From the NCBI GenBank assembly GCA_016464825.1, contig JAEKNQ010000033.1, positions 1 through 64,000 of the forward strand: DNA of 64,000 nt. Reading direction: 5' to 3'. The position numbers were made by a program, and so were the translations under genes. Below, piece by piece: positions 47,349 to 59,555 of the stretch; positions within the stretch are counted from its first letter, which is position 1; each line of letters begins with the position of its first letter. Source of the DNA: Candidatus Dormiibacter inghamiae. Lineage in GTDB: Bacteria > Chloroflexota > Dormibacteria > Dormibacterales > Dormibacteraceae. The notes under the pieces were generated by a model. That model ran no database searches. It saw nothing but the letters and a program-made list of their open reading frames with translations, and was not told the DNA's origin.

Positions 47349-47388
47349 GTGCCATCGCCGCCGGTCAAGATCGCGGGTCCGAAGTGCC

Positions 47389-47394
47389 TAAACT
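47389..47394 (+). promoter_or_regulatory. -10 hexamer TAAACT for citrate synthase
   Basis: TAAACT ends 10 nt before ATG 47405 and lies downstream of GTG 47384, so the ATG is the likelier start. Confidence 0.5.
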
Positions 47395-47404
47395 CATTTT
47401 TCGG

Positions 47405-48529
47405 ATGGAGACTGTCCCGTTTCGGCCTGGACTGGAGGGCGTGGTCGCCGCCCAAACCGAGATCAGCGAGGTCGATGGGCAGAACGGCCGCCTGATCTAT
47501 CGCGGCGGCCACCTCATCAACGAGCTTGCCGATCGCTCGTACGAAGCGATCGCCTACCTGCTCTGGCACGGTGAGCTGCCCAGCCAGGAGCAGGAGGCCG
47601 AGCTCAAGGCTCAGTTCGCCCAGCATCGCGGGCTGAATGAACAGGCCCGAGCGGCGCTGGCGGGCCTCGGCGCGGACGTGGACCCGATGGACGCTCTCCG
47701 CACCCTGCTCTCCGCCCAGACTGCAGCTCCCGGCTGTCCCAAGCCCACGCTGGAAGAGGCGGTCAAGATAACTGCCGTCATGCCGACCGAGGTGGCGGCC
47801 TTTTACCGACGGGTCCAAGGTAAGGAGCCAATCGATCCTCGCAGCGACCTCGGCCACGCCGCCAACTTCGTCTACATGCTGGAGGGCAAGGAACCGAGCC
47901 CGGACAGAGTCCGCTACCTGGAGAGCTACCTGGTCCTGCTGGCCGATCACGGCCTCAACGCCTCCACCTTTGCCACCCGGGTGACTGCCTCGACTGGCAG
48001 CGATTTGGCCTCTGCCATCGTCGCCGGCGTTGCGGCCCTGAAGGGGCCCGCTCACGGCGGAGCCGCCACAGCAGCGATGGTGATGCTGCACCAGGTTGGC
48101 GGCGCTGACAACGCTGAAAAGTTCGTCGTCGACCTGCTCAACACCAAGGGCCGGCTGATGGGGTTCGGCCACCGGATCTACCGCACCTACGACCCGCGCG
48201 CCAAGATCCTGAAGCAGCTGGCGGAGCAGGGCAATCCCGAGTTCTACGCAGTCGCCGCCAAGGTGGAGGAAGTGGCCCTACGCGAACTGCTGGCTCGCCA
48301 CCCTGAACGGCCCAACGCCACCAACGTGGACTATTACTCAGCCGGCGTGCTGGCCGCGGCCGGCTTCCCGAAGGAGTTCTTCAGCTGCGTCTTCGCCGCC
48401 TCCCGCGTGGTGGGTTGGACCGCCCACGTGCTGGAGTACATGGCGAAGGACGGCCGCATTCTCCGTCCCGCCTCCGAATGGCTGGGCCCGGAGCCAGGCG
48501 CCCACAACTCAAGCGGCAAGCAGAACTAG
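47405..48529 (+). CDS. Citrate synthase (type II-like, CitZ/PrpC group)
   Basis: The 374-residue protein condenses acetyl-CoA (or propionyl-CoA) with oxaloacetate. Catalytic His residues lie in ADHGLNASTF and GPAHGGAAT. FGHRIYRTYDPRAK and the late Asp in NVDYYSAGVL are intact. Length and motifs fit the Gram-positive dimeric group, in which citrate and methylcitrate synthases cannot be told apart by eye. Its TAG stop now forms the left edge of repeat A. Before insertion lpd probably followed directly. Confidence 0.93.
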   Translation: METVPFRPGLEGVVAAQTEISEVDGQNGRLIYRGGHLINELADRSYEAIAYLLWHGELPSQEQEAELKAQFAQHRGLNEQARAALAGLGADVDPMDALRTLLSAQTAAPGCPKPTLEEAVKITAVMPTEVAAFYRRVQGKEPIDPRSDLGHAANFVYMLEGKEPSPDRVRYLESYLVLLADHGLNASTFATRVTASTGSDLASAIVAGVAALKGPAHGGAATAAMVMLHQVGGADNAEKFVVDLLNTKGRLMGFGHRIYRTYDPRAKILKQLAEQGNPEFYAVAAKVEEVALRELLARHPERPNATNVDYYSAGVLAAAGFPKEFFSCVFAASRVVGWTAHVLEYMAKDGRILRPASEWLGPEPGAHNSSGKQN

Positions 48530-48743
48530 TGTCCTGCGTCAGCTGTTCGGTGGACAGATTGTTGCAAGCGCCCGAAGGGTGCTGGTCCGGGTGCCGAGGA
48601 CAAGGAACGGGTGGAACTAGGAGGAGCGCACTTCCAGCCGGGGCCCGCGCAGCGGGGGCGTGCTGCGACGGGCCCCATTCCGAAACGCCGGCATCGGCGC
48701 CCGAAGCCGCAATCGGCCGCCGAATCTCTGGCGCAGGACACTA
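48527..48743. repeat. Palindromic repeat element, copy A
   Basis: Left arm TAGTGTCCTGCGTCAG (from 48527) is complementary to the right arm ending CTGGCGCAGGACACTA (48743). The shared core is GTGGAACTAGGAGGAGCGC (48611-48629) and ACGCCGGCATCGGCG (48685-48699). A second long-range pairing joins AGATTGTTGC near 48556 with GCCGCAATC near 48710. It fills the whole gltA-lpd gap: the left TA is part of the gltA stop, the right TA touches the lpd ATG. Confidence 0.85.
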
Positions 48744-50117
48744 ATGGCGGCGAGTGAGTACGACGTCGCCATCCTGGGCGGCGGTACCGGCGGCTACACC
48801 GCGGCGATCCGAGCAGCGCAGCTCGAACAGCGCGTGGTTCTGGTGGAGCAGGCCAAGCTGGGCGGAACCTGCCTCCACCTCGGCTGCATCCCGACTAAGG
48901 CCCTTCTGGAGTCGTCGAACCTCTTCCACAAACTTCACGCGCGGGGCAGCGAGTACGGTATCAGCGGCGAGGTCAAATTCGATGCCGCTACCGTGGCCAG
49001 CCGCCGCGACGCTATCGTGAACCAGCTCTGGAAGGGAGTTCAGGGCCTGATGAAGAAGAACCGCATAGATGTCATCGAAGGCCACGGAACGATGACCGGC
49101 AGAGACAGCATCCAGGTGGGCGAGCAGACTGTCAAGGCCAAGGCAGTCATCGTGGCGACAGGCTCCCGCCCTCGAGGCCTACCCGGAGTCGAGTTCGACG
49201 GGCGGCGCGTGATCAACTCCGACCACGCGGTCCTGGCCACTGAGATCCCCCAGTCGGTGGCCATCATCGGCGCCGGTGCCATCGGCGTCGAGTTCGCCAC
49301 CTACTACCGGCAGCTCGGAGCCGAGGTGACGCTGGTGGAAGCACTGCCCCGGCTCGTCCCTCTGGAGGACGAGGAAGTCTCGAAGGTCATGCTGCAAGCG
49401 TTCAAGAAATCAGGCATCGACTGCCGCGTGAACGCCAGGGTCCGAGAGGTGAGGCCAGCGGAAGAAGGCGTGACTCTGCAGCTGGAAGATGGTGAGGTGA
49501 GAGCTGAGCAGCTGCTGATCGCCATTGGGCGGGTGGCCAACAGTGAAGACTGCGGGCTTCAGGAAGCCGGGGTCGAGTGTGACCAGCGTGGTTTCGTCAA
49601 GACCAATGAGTGGATGCGAACGAACGAGGCAGGCATCTGGGCGATCGGCGACGTGGTCGGGGGCTACCTGCTGGCCCATGCGGCGGCGCACGAAGGTGTC
49701 ACGGCGGTCGAGGACATCGCCGGCCGGCGAATCCAAGCCATGGAGCAGGATCTCATCACACGCTGCACCTACTCGACACCAGAGATCGCTTCAGTCGGCC
49801 TGACTGAGACCCAGGCCCGCGAGCAGGGCCACGAGGTGAAGAGCGGGAAGTTTCCCTTCCTCGCCAATGGTCGCGCCCTGATTCACGGTGAGACCGAAGG
49901 TTTCGCCAAGCTGATCGCCGATGGCAAAACAGGCCAACTGCTGGGAGCCCATGTCGTCGGCGTGCAGGCGACGGAGCTGATCGCCGAGCCTGCCCTGGCC
50001 CGCCTGTTCCAGGGCGACGCCTGGGAGATCGGCCGCAACATTCACCCCCACCCGACCCTGACCGAGGTGCTCGGCGAGGCAGCGCTCGCGGTCGATGGAG
50101 CCGCGCTCAACATCTAA
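48744..50117 (+). CDS. lpdA: Dihydrolipoyl dehydrogenase (E3)
   Basis: The 457-residue flavoprotein has FAD motif AILGGGTGGYTAAIRAA, redox disulfide GGTCLHLGCIPTK, NAD motif AIIGAGAIGVEFATYY and C-terminal base His/Glu in NIHPHPTLTEVLGEA. It reoxidises lipoyl-E2. ATG 48744 directly abuts repeat A; the frame upstream belongs to the repeat. E1 and E2 genes follow. Confidence 0.95.
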   Translation: MAASEYDVAILGGGTGGYTAAIRAAQLEQRVVLVEQAKLGGTCLHLGCIPTKALLESSNLFHKLHARGSEYGISGEVKFDAATVASRRDAIVNQLWKGVQGLMKKNRIDVIEGHGTMTGRDSIQVGEQTVKAKAVIVATGSRPRGLPGVEFDGRRVINSDHAVLATEIPQSVAIIGAGAIGVEFATYYRQLGAEVTLVEALPRLVPLEDEEVSKVMLQAFKKSGIDCRVNARVREVRPAEEGVTLQLEDGEVRAEQLLIAIGRVANSEDCGLQEAGVECDQRGFVKTNEWMRTNEAGIWAIGDVVGGYLLAHAAAHEGVTAVEDIAGRRIQAMEQDLITRCTYSTPEIASVGLTETQAREQGHEVKSGKFPFLANGRALIHGETEGFAKLIADGKTGQLLGAHVVGVQATELIAEPALARLFQGDAWEIGRNIHPHPTLTEVLGEAALAVDGAALNI

Positions 50118-50131
50118 GAGGCAGACTAAAC

Positions 50132-52201
50132 ATGGCGCAGACGCAATCCAAGGCACAAGAGACGACCACCAAGGTCGGAGCGTGGTACTACCAGGAACCC
50201 GTGGACTGGCGAGACACCGATCTGGACGAGGAGACGCTGCGCAGCTGGTTTCATCTCATGCTTCTTGGCCGTCAGATCGATTACCGCTGCCAGGTCCTGA
50301 ACCGCCAGGGTCGCGCTCCCTTCATCATTTCGTGCGCCGGCCACGAGGCTGCCCAGATCGGGGCCTCCTGGCCGCTTCGGCCCCAGCACGACTGGATCTC
50401 TCCCTACTATCGCGACGTCGTCCTCTGCTTCCGCATGGGCTTGACGCCGCTGGACCTCATGCTCTCGGTGCTGGCCAAGCCGGCGGACCCCGCCTCCGGC
50501 GGCAAGCAGACTCCCGGCCATTTCAGCGACACCCGGCTCAACATCATCTCCGGCGGTTCCCCTCTGTCGACACAGATGGTCCACGGCGCCGGCGCGGCCT
50601 ACGCGCTCAAGATGGACGGCTCGGACAAGATGGTCATGACCTCCTACGGTGAGGGCGCCGGCTCCGAGGGTGACGCCCATGAGGCCTTCAACTTCGCAGC
50701 CATCTACAAGCTGCCCATCGTCTTCCTCTGCCAGAACAACGGCTTTGCCATCTCGACGCCCTTCAGCAAGGAGTACGCGGTCGAGCACGCTGCGCAGCGG
50801 GCTCTCGGCTATGGTTTCCCCGGCGTCACCCTCGACGGGCGCGACCCGGTAACCGTCTACCACGTCGCCAAACAGGCGGTGGCTCGAGCGCGTGGGGGCC
50901 AGGGCCCGACGCTCATCGAGACGATCGTCGACCGTCTGGGGGCGCACTCGTCAGAAGACGATCAGCGGCGCTACCGCACCCAGGAGGAGCTGGAAAAGCT
51001 TGCCTCCAACGATTGCCTAAGCCGCTTTCGCACCAAGCTGGTCGAGCAGGGCATCCTCAGCGAGAAGCAGGTCCAAGAGTACGAGGATGATGTCAAGGAG
51101 GAGGTCACCCAGGCCACCCGACAGGGGCTCGACTCGCCCGACGCCAAACCTGAGGACGCGCTGACCAACGTGTACGCGCCGAGTGTGCCCGAGGCCACGG
51201 ACCCCGCGCCGGACGCCGAGACGGAAGAGGTCAACATGGTGCAGGCGCTGCGGGATGCCCTCGCCTGGGAGATGGAGCACGACGAGCGCGTGGTGGTGCT
51301 GGGCGAGGACGTCGGACCGAAGGGCGGCGTCTTCCTGGTCACCGACGGCCTCTACCATCGCTTCGGCGCCGAACGTGTGCTGGACACGCCGATCGCCGAG
51401 TCATCCATTGCGGGCGTCGCATTGGGTTTAGCGCTTGCCGGCAAGCGGCCCATGGCGGAGATGCAGTTCACAGACTTCGCCCACATGGCCTTCAATCAGA
51501 TCACCAACGAGATAGCGAAGTTCCGCTACCGAAGCAACGGGGACTGGGGCGTGCCCATGGTCATCCGGGCGCCGATGGGCGGTCACGTACATGGCGCTCT
51601 CTACCACTCGCAGTCGATTGAGGCGCGCTTTGCGACACCGGGCCTGAAGATAGTCATTCCCTCGACCCCGTATGAGGCGAAGGGATTGCTCTTCGCAGCC
51701 ATGCGCGATGAGGATCCTGTGCTCTTCTTCGAGCACAAGCGCCTCTACCGCATGTTCAAGGAGGCTGTGCCCAAGGGTGAGTACCTGATCCCCCTCCAGC
51801 AGGCCAGGGTCGTGCGAGCGGGGGATGACATCTCGGTATTCTGCTACGGCCTGATGGTGCACTACGCGCTGCAGGCGGCGAAGAACCTGGAGGAAAAGGG
51901 TTACAGCGTCGAGGTGGTCGACCTGCGGACAGTCTATCCACTGGACAAGGACGCCATCCTCACCTCAGCCCGCAAGACCGGCAAGTGCCTGGTCCTCTAC
52001 GAGGACAACTTCAGCGTGTCGGTGGGCTCCGAGGTAGCAGCCATCATCGCCGATGAGGCGTGGCGCTGGCTCGACGCTCCTGTCAAGCGGCTGGGCGGCC
52101 TGGATGTGCCGGCGATGCCGTATGCGGAGCCGATGGAGAACTTTTTCATGCCCAATCCCGAAAAGGTCTCGCAGGCGCTGAAGGAACTGGCGGAGTTCTA
52201 G
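50132..52201 (+). CDS. 2-oxoacid dehydrogenase E1, alpha and beta subunits fused (branched-chain type)
   Basis: The 689-residue thiamine-diphosphate enzyme starts 14 nt after lpd. Residues about 1-340 are E1-alpha (TPP-binding GEGAGSEGDAHEAFNF ending in CQNN; HSSEDDQRRYR phosphorylation-loop-like region). A 40-residue acidic linker precedes E1-beta (about 375-689, LGEDVGPKGGVFLVTDGL, TPIAESSIAGVALGLA). Similarity is greatest to branched-chain 2-oxoacid dehydrogenases, but pyruvate cannot be excluded. The TAG stop forms the edge of repeat B. Confidence 0.92.
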   Translation: MAQTQSKAQETTTKVGAWYYQEPVDWRDTDLDEETLRSWFHLMLLGRQIDYRCQVLNRQGRAPFIISCAGHEAAQIGASWPLRPQHDWISPYYRDVVLCFRMGLTPLDLMLSVLAKPADPASGGKQTPGHFSDTRLNIISGGSPLSTQMVHGAGAAYALKMDGSDKMVMTSYGEGAGSEGDAHEAFNFAAIYKLPIVFLCQNNGFAISTPFSKEYAVEHAAQRALGYGFPGVTLDGRDPVTVYHVAKQAVARARGGQGPTLIETIVDRLGAHSSEDDQRRYRTQEELEKLASNDCLSRFRTKLVEQGILSEKQVQEYEDDVKEEVTQATRQGLDSPDAKPEDALTNVYAPSVPEATDPAPDAETEEVNMVQALRDALAWEMEHDERVVVLGEDVGPKGGVFLVTDGLYHRFGAERVLDTPIAESSIAGVALGLALAGKRPMAEMQFTDFAHMAFNQITNEIAKFRYRSNGDWGVPMVIRAPMGGHVHGALYHSQSIEARFATPGLKIVIPSTPYEAKGLLFAAMRDEDPVLFFEHKRLYRMFKEAVPKGEYLIPLQQARVVRAGDDISVFCYGLMVHYALQAAKNLEEKGYSVEVVDLRTVYPLDKDAILTSARKTGKCLVLYEDNFSVSVGSEVAAIIADEAWRWLDAPVKRLGGLDVPAMPYAEPMENFFMPNPEKVSQALKELAEF

Positions 52202-52408
52202 TGTCCTGCGCCAGAAGTTCGTTGAGTAGATTGTGGCAGGCGCCCAGTGCGCGCCCGTCCGGGCGCCGACAGGAATCGGTGGGACTAGGACGAGCGCACT
52301 TCCAGCCGGGGCCGCAGCGGGGGCGTGCGACGACGGGCCGGGCCCCACGACGCGCGCATCGGCGTCCGGAGCCGCAATCTGCCAGCGAATGTCTGGGGCG
52401 AGACACTA
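52199..52408. repeat. Palindromic repeat element, copy B
   Basis: This is the closest relative of copy A, 210 bp. Arms are TAGTGTCCTGCGCCAGA (52199-52215) and TCTGGGGCGAGACACTA (52392-52408). The core is GTGGGACTAGGACGAGCGC (52279-52297) and ACGCGCGCATCGGCG (52350-52364). An inner pairing joins AGATTGTGGC near 52229 and GCCGCAATCT near 52371. Its left TA lies in the E1 stop codon and its right end is 4 nt from the E2 start. Confidence 0.88.
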
Positions 52409-52412
52409 GCTG

Positions 52413-53786
52413 ATGCCCACGACCAAGGTAACGATGCCGCAGCTGGGCGAGTCCGTCCATGAGGGGACCATCGCCAAGTGGCTGGTGAAGCCGGGTGACA
52501 AGCTGGTGGAGTTCGAACCCATGCTCGAGGTGGACACCGACAAGGTGAACGCCGAGGTGCCGGCGCCGGTGACGGGCGTGCTGAAGGAGATCCTGGCCCA
52601 AGAAGGCGCGACAGTCCAGGCCGGCAGCGAGATCGCCGTCGTCGAGCTGGAGGGTGAGGGCAACGGCGCAGCCGCTCCTGAGAAGGTGGAGGCGACCGCC
52701 GCGGCGGCAGATGAGCCGGCCGGCGGCGGCGACGCCATGCCGTCGGCTGAACAGGCGAGAGCCGCCGACGCGCAGCCCAGACCGTCGCCGCAGTCGGCGC
52801 CGGAGTCTCCCAGTCAGGGTCCAGCGGAAGCGGCCAAAGCCCCAGCGGCCGCCCAGCCGGACAGCCCGGTGCATCGCTTCTCGCCGGGCGTGCTCATGCT
52901 GGCCGAGGAGAGCGGCGTTGATCTCGCTCGGATCAAGGGGACAGGGCTCGGCGGCCGGGTGACCAAGCGGGACGTGCGCCAGTTCGTGGAAGGACAGCAC
53001 GGCCCGGAAGCTGCACCGGGGGAACTGGCGCCGACCGGCGCCACCTCGACGCCAGACACCGCGGCCGACCGGCCGATTGCCACCGGCGAGGGCGACCAGA
53101 CAGTCCCGCTCACGCGCATGCGCAGGCTGATCGCCGAGAACATGACCAAGTCGAAGGCGACCATCCCCCACGCCTGGCAGACGCAGGAGGTGGACATGAG
53201 CGGCGTGGTGGCCAACCGCTCTCACCACAAGGCGGCCTTCGCCGAGCGCGAAGGCTTCTCACTCACCTACCTGCCTTATGTGATCGCCGCCGCGGTAGCG
53301 TCCCTGCGCGAGCATCCCCAGGTAAACGCCACCTTCAATGGCGACGCGATCCTGGTCCACGGCAAGATCAACCTCGGCGTCTCGGTTGGCTTCGAGGACA
53401 CGCTGCTGGTGCCGGTGATCAAGAGCGCCGACTCCCTCTCGTTGGCAGGCATCGCCCGGGCGGTGAACGACCTCGCCGGCCGCGCGAAGACACAGCAGCT
53501 GAAGGGGGATGACCTGCAGGGCGGCACCTTCACTGTGAACAACTCGGGCACTTTCGGCACGCTGTTCAGCTACTCGGTGATCAGCCCGGGCCAGGCCGGC
53601 ATCCTGACCATGGAGGCCATCGTCGAGCGCCCCGTGGCGGTCGGGGGGATGATCGGGATCAAGCCGATGATGTACCTGTGCTTCAGCTTCGACCATCGGA
53701 CGCTGGACGGTCTGCAAGCAGCGCGCTATCTGACCAGTTGCCGCCGGTGGCTGGAAGCGGTCACCGCCGAGACCCCTATCTACTGA
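52413..53786 (+). CDS. Dihydrolipoyllysine acyltransferase (E2) of a 2-oxoacid dehydrogenase complex
   Basis: The 457 residues comprise one lipoyl domain (lipoyl Lys44 in EVDTDKVNAEV), an Ala/Pro/Glu-rich linker, a peripheral-subunit-binding domain (VLMLAEESGVDLARIKGTG, then GGRVTKRDVRQFVE), a second linker and a catalytic domain from about 230 (PLTRMRRLIAENMTKSK). The active site is CFSFDHRTLDGLQAARYL (His and Asp). It forms the complex core with the E1 and E3 encoded just upstream. Confidence 0.94.
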   Translation: MPTTKVTMPQLGESVHEGTIAKWLVKPGDKLVEFEPMLEVDTDKVNAEVPAPVTGVLKEILAQEGATVQAGSEIAVVELEGEGNGAAAPEKVEATAAAADEPAGGGDAMPSAEQARAADAQPRPSPQSAPESPSQGPAEAAKAPAAAQPDSPVHRFSPGVLMLAEESGVDLARIKGTGLGGRVTKRDVRQFVEGQHGPEAAPGELAPTGATSTPDTAADRPIATGEGDQTVPLTRMRRLIAENMTKSKATIPHAWQTQEVDMSGVVANRSHHKAAFAEREGFSLTYLPYVIAAAVASLREHPQVNATFNGDAILVHGKINLGVSVGFEDTLLVPVIKSADSLSLAGIARAVNDLAGRAKTQQLKGDDLQGGTFTVNNSGTFGTLFSYSVISPGQAGILTMEAIVERPVAVGGMIGIKPMMYLCFSFDHRTLDGLQAARYLTSCRRWLEAVTAETPIY

Positions 53787-59236: not shown

Positions 59237-59555
59237 CCAGTGGACTGTGACGGTCGGATGTGGAGCAGGCCGGAGGCTCGTAGACCGGCGTTCCAGACGG
59301 GCGGTGCCAACCGGGTCCGGCGAAGTCGAAGACTTCGTGGGGTGGGAGGATCGGGTGGCGCAACTAGGAGCCCATCTCAAGATGGGCGGCGAAGCGCGCC
59401 GGGCCCCCCTGCTTAGGGGACCCCGCTTGCGAAGAATGGAGCGCCGGCATCAGCGCCCGCAGGCCGCCCGTCTGTCGGGGTCCCCACGTAGCGTGCTTCG
59501 TGGGGTGGCTCTGGGGCGGCGGATGCTCCATATTGGGCTGTCACGGTCCACTAGT
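59236..59555. repeat. Palindromic repeat element, copy C
   Basis: Arms of 32 nt (59236-59267 and 59524-59555) pair imperfectly, e.g. AGTGGACTGTGACGG against CCGTGAC...GTCCACT. The core keeps CAACTAGGAGC (59361-59371), the adjoining hairpin CCCATCTCAAGATGGG (59371-59386) and GCGCCGGCATCAGCG (59441-59455). TA follows the right end and CA precedes the left. It fills the gap between two convergent genes, touching both stop codons. Confidence 0.82.

Follow-up and report, generated by a model that had tools for sequence, protein, structure and literature searches.

Probable IS630-dependent miniature elements with a conserved, covarying core in a 2-oxoacid dehydrogenase operon of Candidatus Dormiibacter inghamiae

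How can a mobile element enter a tightly packed operon without breaking the genes on either side of it? This question is raised by two palindromic elements, A and B, in the gltA–lpd–E1–E2 operon of Candidatus Dormiibacter inghamiae, a member of the family Dormibacteraceae, whose draft genome comprises 3.09 Mb in 64 contigs (assembly GCA_016464825.1; G000 below, with other genomes, contigs and loci cited by G, C and L numbers). The stretch analysed, referred to as the window, consists of positions 1 to 64,000 of contig JAEKNQ010000033.1 of this genome. We conclude that A, located between gltA and lpd, and B, located between E1 and E2, are very probably IS630-dependent miniature inverted-repeat transposable elements (MITEs), which transposases of the IS630/Tc1-mariner type encoded in the same genome would move in trans. 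The family to which they belong combines terminal inverted repeats, duplication of a TA with single-TA empty sites in a relative, a length below ~500 bp, outer ends shared with resident IS630 transposons, and insertion at CTAG.

Elements A and B and their operon

The genes of the operon, the two elements and their folded cores lie as follows:

47384–48529, + strand: gltA, citrate synthase (Pfam PF00285), running into A
48529–48741, + strand: copy A, 213 bp; TA at 48527–48528 on the left and at 48742–48743 on the right
48597–48688, + strand: folded core of A, long-apex form (covariance model R1, 31.7 bits)
48744–50117, + strand: lpd, dihydrolipoamide dehydrogenase (Pfam PF07992/PF02852)
50132–52201, + strand: fused E1 alpha-beta, 2-oxoacid dehydrogenase (Pfam PF00676, PF02779, PF02780), running into B
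52201–52406, + strand: copy B, 206 bp; TA at 52199–52200 on the left and at 52407–52408 on the right
52264–52359, + strand: folded core of B, long-apex form (covariance model R1, 29.7 bits)
52413–53786, + strand: E2 acyltransferase (Pfam PF00198, PF00364)

The ends of A form an inverted repeat of 27 nt that is 81% complementary, and A and B are 77% identical over their whole length (BLAST), in agreement with the original prediction of two TA-flanked, mutually similar elements with inverted ends. The lengths of 217 and 210 bp given there hold only when both TAs are counted, the elements proper being 213 and 206 bp long. The stop codon of gltA is TAG, made up of the left TA and the first G of A, and that of E1 is the same codon made up in the same way with B; the left TAs thus lie inside both stops, as had been proposed. 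The right TA of A adjoins the ATG of lpd, and the end CAGGACAC-TA-ATG places an AGGA 5 nt before this start, which, to judge from the letters, could serve as a Shine–Dalgarno-like site. Both elements fold better than all 200 of 200 dinucleotide shuffles (z −6.2 for A and −4.6 for B), and neither contains an intrinsic terminator that a simple pattern scan would recognise. As at least 33 pieces matching A by BLAST are present in the same genome (40 of 68 candidates scored), the shuffle scores and the copies together exclude a chance origin of A and B; the copies also bear out the expectation that the elements would recur outside the operon.

Empty and remnant sites in a sister species

The operon had been proposed to have been continuous before two insertions. 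In the genome of Candidatus Dormiibacter spiritus (G001), which belongs to the same genus, the flanks of 28 copies were sought, 27 were found, and 25 sites were readable on both flanks. The element was absent from 21 of these 25, both operon sites included, so that the empty sites looked for in a relative were indeed found. Four of them (L012, L025, L164 and L021) are exact, with a single TA, and 11 are empty with diverged edges (L001, which is A, L002, L006, L008, L009 and L018, and also L019, L022, L023, L030 and L158). The remaining six carry 8–24 nt of remnant-like sequence (L007, which is B, L047, L011, L013, L043 and L058), and may reflect imprecise excision or internal deletion. An element is present in G001 too at L005 and L017 and partly present at L028, while the L003 site holds an unrelated insert.

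At the operon itself, the gltA–lpd junction of G001 is tight and free of A, and the E1–E2 junction is near-continuous and free of a full B, which supports the continuity of the operon before the insertions. The junction AAC-TAATG predicted for gltA–lpd was not found as such, however: the site is empty but reads AAC-TGATG. The remnant at the B site (in locus L119 of G001, from which both operon sites were read) is TA-GTGGACGC-TA, with 8 bp between the TAs, and that at the L047 site (locus L225) is TA-GTGGCGGC-TA. These two remnants are alike although they lie at unrelated sites, and they are possible excision footprints.

Target site and stop codons

Both TAs are kept in 22 of 31 copies bounded by inverted-repeat ends in the D. 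inghamiae genome. Removal of the element with one TA rebuilds CTAG in 15 of these 22 copies, compared with 51 of all 854 TAs in the window (p = 5e-14) and 23 of its 142 non-coding TAs (p = 7e-8). Without the three copies that adjoin another element, the proportion is 12 of 19 (p = 7e-11 and 5e-6, respectively). The target is, therefore, CTAG, or less strictly TA, as for IS630, which prefers the TA in CTAG according to the title of a 1991 paper by Tenzen and Ohtsubo.

A flanking gene ends exactly in a TAG stop formed by the TA and the first G of the element in 15 of the 31 copies, as counted with a codon-usage gene finder written for the purpose. The element repeat begins with G, and it is therefore that TA plus G restores a TAG stop. 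In G001, 14 of the 15 genes concerned were found, with the stop at the same place in 10 and within 9 nt of it in 4; therefore, these genes have not been shortened by insertion. It might be supposed that the elements target stop codons as such, beyond a preference for CTAG, and the placement in 15 of 31 copies does exceed that of non-coding TAs (23 of 142; p = 3e-5). When non-coding CTAG sites, 9 of 23 of which lie at stops, are taken for comparison, the excess is not significant (p = 0.19). Since CTAG seldom occurs in coding DNA but often at stops, copies at stop codons are explained without special targeting, and the CTAG preference together with the loss of insertions from genes is enough to account for their excess. 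We thus reject stop-codon targeting as such and consider it very improbable.

Copies in the genome and element types

The 31 bounded copies, which were picked by hand (L008 and L010 being added, and nested or spurious-looking pairs left out), are 84–288 bp long and represent a minimum. The copy number is uncertain, as there are at least 33 BLAST pieces, 31 bounded copies and 56 core matches (94 candidates scored). All 31 and the third element of the window (W3, below) are shorter than 500 bp, too short for a transposase of ~300 amino acids; the absence of a transposase was judged by this length, with no family search run on the elements themselves. By end type the copies form at least three groups, GTGTCCTGCGCCAGA, GTGTCCTGGAACC and GTGGCCTGCTTCC-like. 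Matches to A were obtained in 27 of 61 genomes, its own included, namely in 27 of 37 of the same family and in none of 24 of other families.

Two further elements lie in the window:

59240–59551, + strand: third element (W3), 312 bp, with other inverted repeats (GTGGACYGTGACRGYC); CA on the left, TA at 59552–59553 on the right
1–181, + strand: fourth element, right part, cut by the contig start, with its core at 53–133; TA at 182–183 on the right

The third element has the same core as A and B, at 59341–59420, and sits between one gene on the + strand and one on the − strand. The right end of the fourth, read inwards, is GTTGCCTGTACCAG. The starts of contigs C29, C34 and C35 and the start of the window carry cores of identical bit score, and the starts of C29 and C34 read alike as far as the TA, which suggests a very recent amplification that broke the assembly. 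One copy, L047:1276-1511, is a hybrid with respect to the two IS630 types described below: its left end, GTTGCCTGTAACC, is beta-like and its right end, GTGTCCCGCGCC, alpha-like, as in a possible recombinant between end types.

Resident IS630 transposons

The same genome holds two genes with a DDE_3 domain, on contigs C34 (IS630 beta) and C49. Automatic inverted-repeat searches returned no ends at either locus. Those of beta, TA-GTTGCCTGTACCAG and GACTGGTACAGGCCTC-TA, were read by eye, and none were found for the C49 copy. IS630 alpha is represented by eight ends at contig borders, four from the left and four from the right, all starting with TA-GTGTCCTGTC; in our own reading of these short fragments, their translations appear to be the N- and C-termini of an IS630-type transposase. 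At L153/L155, the alpha transposase frame enters the inverted repeat (..TSETGH), with the stop seemingly supplied by the flanking TA. In another family of the class, genome G046 holds a complete IS630 with GTGTCCTGA ends and TA.

All 14 outer nucleotides of the element at the window start are identical to those of IS630 beta (GTTGCCTGTACCAG), and the outer GTGTCCTG of A and of the left end of B is common to IS630 alpha. The TA duplication, which had been likened to that of IS630/Tc1-mariner MITEs, is thus matched by IS630 transposons with corresponding outer ends in the same genome. The outer bases of A and B support an IS630 origin, but whether alpha or beta would be their IS630 is not settled by them. 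An element of the kind described here adjoins IS630 beta on C34 at a common TA, and elements and IS630 copies, or two elements, likewise adjoin at a common TA at L148:1391-2752, L154 and L163.

A conserved core of ~80 nt

A core of ~80 nt is common to the element subfamilies. Among 39 core candidates (none in L162), we left out the E1–E2 element of G007 and L047 and kept 37, 30 of which form alignment A1; the core covariance model R1 was built from 13 short-apex cores (alignment A2). Over the 43 distinct sequences among 47 matches, 94.2% of the cells are paired, a count that leans towards the model, as alignment A3 was fitted to it and mixes sequences used in model building with new ones. Slid control versions of the core reached at most 52.7%. 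Double changes occur in 8 of the 17 core pairs, and none of 500 shuffles scored as high. Moreover, two wobble pairs are conserved, U-G in 38 and G-U in 32 of the 43 distinct sequences, and conservation extends to the loop sequence around AGGAGGA and GACGACG. Folding of whole elements favoured the + strand over the − strand in 39 of the 40 distinct ones (41 entries, one a duplicate), which are related and not independent of one another. By their structure, the elements would likely add folded RNA between the genes of the operon, as had been suggested. The core itself may function as an RNA, as single-stranded DNA or as a site for binding.

Among 49 near relatives, the core model matched 27 (26 of the 30 members of the family, and G046). 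Among 110 genomes of the class it matched 43, of which 37 belong to the same family (42 listed), 5 to family f2 and 1 to family f3. A sample of the phylum gave matches in 16 of 301 genomes, 15 of which belong to the same class. The sixteenth, in G130 outside the class (35.5 bits), was judged to be due to chance, as it is the sole match in that genome and lies inside an open reading frame of 570 codons, which by its motifs, read without a database search of the frame, appears to encode an ATPase. No convincing core was found outside the class among the sampled genomes under the stricter filters of these large searches, in which 15–94 candidates were scored per genome, so that weaker ones beyond the class might have escaped. 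In Rfam, no match reached the gathering threshold in the window, and no relevant weak match was obtained for A, L021 or L158. T-box leader RNAs carry the string AGGGUGGNAC, which the core string AGGGUGGNRC resembles, but the pairing of the core is different. As there is only this one similar string, and no Rfam T-box match at E values up to 10 for A, L021 and L158, a relation to the T-box was rejected.

Ends that differ around the core

Of 60 core loci, 25 have a TA-flanked inverted repeat above the score limit, 8 of them unsafe: in six an inner TA was chosen (L275, L276, L278, L279, L283 and L298), and the other two are one locus (L265, L300) whose score of 6 equals the best of 43 displaced controls. 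In the 17 firm loci, with scores of 8–19, the outer ends differ, as exemplified by GTGTCCCGGATCRGAA in G046, GTGGACTGTAACGG in G019 and GTGGCYCACARCG in G006, while outer ends of the GTGTC-CG type occur in G002, G020, G024 and G029. The core is better conserved than the ends across several end types. Even the D. inghamiae genome alone contains end types that match two different IS630 transposons, the window-start type matching beta and the outer nucleotides of the A type matching alpha. The interior of a MITE is usually variable or derived from the parent insertion sequence, although not strictly so; here, the interior is the better conserved part.

For the E1–E2 junction, 29 loci from 28 relatives were inspected, of which L144 stops short of the junction. 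E1 and E2 overlap or lie at most 25 nt apart in 22 of the 28. In G010 and G019, which belong to one genus (g10), a core-bearing element with ends other than those of B lies between the two genes, and in G007 the junction holds a different inverted-repeat element of ~179 bp. An unrelated palindrome of ~60 nt, CCCTCCCCACCAGTGGGGAGGG, separates E1 and E2 in G003 and G016 (L145, L146).

Discussion

We propose that a resident IS630-type transposase would mobilise the non-autonomous elements in trans, and that they would insert at CTAG, less strictly at TA, with duplication of the TA. A copy landing in a stop codon would restore TAG for the upstream gene through its first G, and its right TA would rejoin the next ATG wherever this lies nearby, as it does in the operon; a right end of the form ..AGGACAC-TA may also supply AGGA, a Shine–Dalgarno-like sequence, 5 nt before the start. 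With the TAG restored and a close ATG rejoined, the operon would thereby tolerate the insertions, presumably under selection. Since an insertion creates a new CTAG-like junction on either side, copies that abut one another would be accounted for. If so, the locus displays in its letters how a transposable element may enter a tight operon without breaking its genes, by way of the TA within a stop codon and of an end whose first base is G. At individual sites, the sister genome shows whether the element is full, missing or reduced to a remnant.

Several observations weigh against this account. The predicted TAATG allele is not seen in G001, 11 of the empty sites there lack a clean TA, and at L030, L002, L011 and L006 one flank edge (79–111 nt) was unaligned and judged by eye. 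IS630 alpha is incomplete in the assembly, with 138–252 nt of its ends and an identity taken from short translations. Over 34 nt, A and B match the right end of alpha at 19–22 positions of their ends, a modest similarity barely above that to beta (13–20 positions; for the left end of B, 22 with alpha versus 20 with beta), and close agreement with alpha is limited to the outer 5–8 nt. The stop counts come from a home-made gene finder, and L162 and L022 are weak gene calls among the 15. Finally, 35 of the 60 core loci, in various genomes, lack a good inverted repeat with TA on both sides.

Other explanations were weighed. Were A and B chance palindromes or ancestral intergenic sequence and not insertions, the general frequency of hairpins in G+C-rich DNA would speak for it and nothing beyond, whereas the dispersed copies and shuffled-fold z-scores speak against it and the empty alleles refute it, so that its probability is practically nil. 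It is also conceivable that A and B are domesticated regulatory RNAs, whose + strand in the mRNA tunes stability or translation and which are kept for that. The better folding of the + strand, the covarying stems with their conserved G-U pairs, and the core-bearing E1–E2 elements of genus g10 would fit such a role, as might the presence of an element, albeit a different one, at the junction of G007. However, G001, of the same genus, has neither A nor B in full, and most relatives keep E1 and E2 overlapping or nearly so. Moreover, 17 D. inghamiae copies lie between tandem genes, 6 with and 11 against the direction of transcription; in view of this lack of bias, and as the pattern scan showed no terminator, we rejected cis regulation of the host operon and consider domestication improbable.

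The covariation of the core raises a different question, as its paired changes could have arisen in DNA, by template switching or homogenisation or through single-stranded structure during transposition, and not in a functional RNA. Copying errors are plausible in palindromic mobile DNA, and we take this explanation seriously while finding it somewhat unlikely: the conserved U-G and G-U wobbles are A-C mismatches on the other strand, which template switching would tend to erase, and the loop around AGGAGGA and GACGACG has likewise kept its sequence. As to the ends, we infer a modular element, in which a folded core is kept and the ends change to fit the active IS630. More specifically, an RNA of ~80 nt with a selected structure might have spread through the Dormibacteria by being repackaged between successive IS630-type ends, an idea that we hold tentatively and consider rather unlikely. 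The case without repackaging, in which core and ends descend together and the ends drift faster, each lineage following its own transposase, has about an even chance of being right. It draws support from inner end parts that are shared between genera, which indicate that the ends may have drifted step by step and count against a clean exchange: GAGGTCCGC and GAAGTTC are shared by type II of G000 with G002, G024 and G029, and TGTAACGGCC is common to the window-start type of G000 and to G019. On the other hand, several end types surround the same core in one genome, and L047 has two different ends. If repackaging were true, the cargo would be conserved and the transposon ends replaceable, and the RNA would serve a function in its own right, be it in its spread (e.g., by helping its own mobilisation) or in the host. 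The question raised is why the interior of a MITE would be preserved while its ends change. The core could represent a new class of mobile structured RNA.

Relation to known systems

In the titles and abstract beginnings of the openly licensed papers found by searching, these elements of Dormibacterota, a covarying core in bacterial MITEs, and the restoration of stop codons by IS630-type MITEs were not described. The terms "stop codon", "IS630", "conserved core" and "Chloroflex" were all absent when a 2024 review of prokaryotic MITEs (PMC10969869) was searched for them. Correia, ERIC and CIR repeats, as portrayed in the portions of the literature consulted, resemble A and B as folded repeats able to enter transcripts; they belong to other hosts, and the likeness is one of description. 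IS630 and ISY100, of the Tc1/mariner/IS630 family, share the TA duplication with A and B according to the part of the source consulted (PMC2170065), but they are autonomous and encode a transposase, for which A and B are too short. As far as the consulted parts of two reports go (PMC2229807, PMC3049150), the closest known case is RUP of Streptococcus pneumoniae, a non-coding element of 107 bp with more than 100 copies, a TA target and IS630-Spn1-like ends. Like RUP, A and B are short and non-coding, use a TA target and have ends resembling a resident IS630; unlike them, RUP is not described in those parts as having a conserved core across end types or an exact placement in stop codons. Taken together, an IS630-dependent MITE is a known kind of element, and the covarying core of ~80 nt is the new part.

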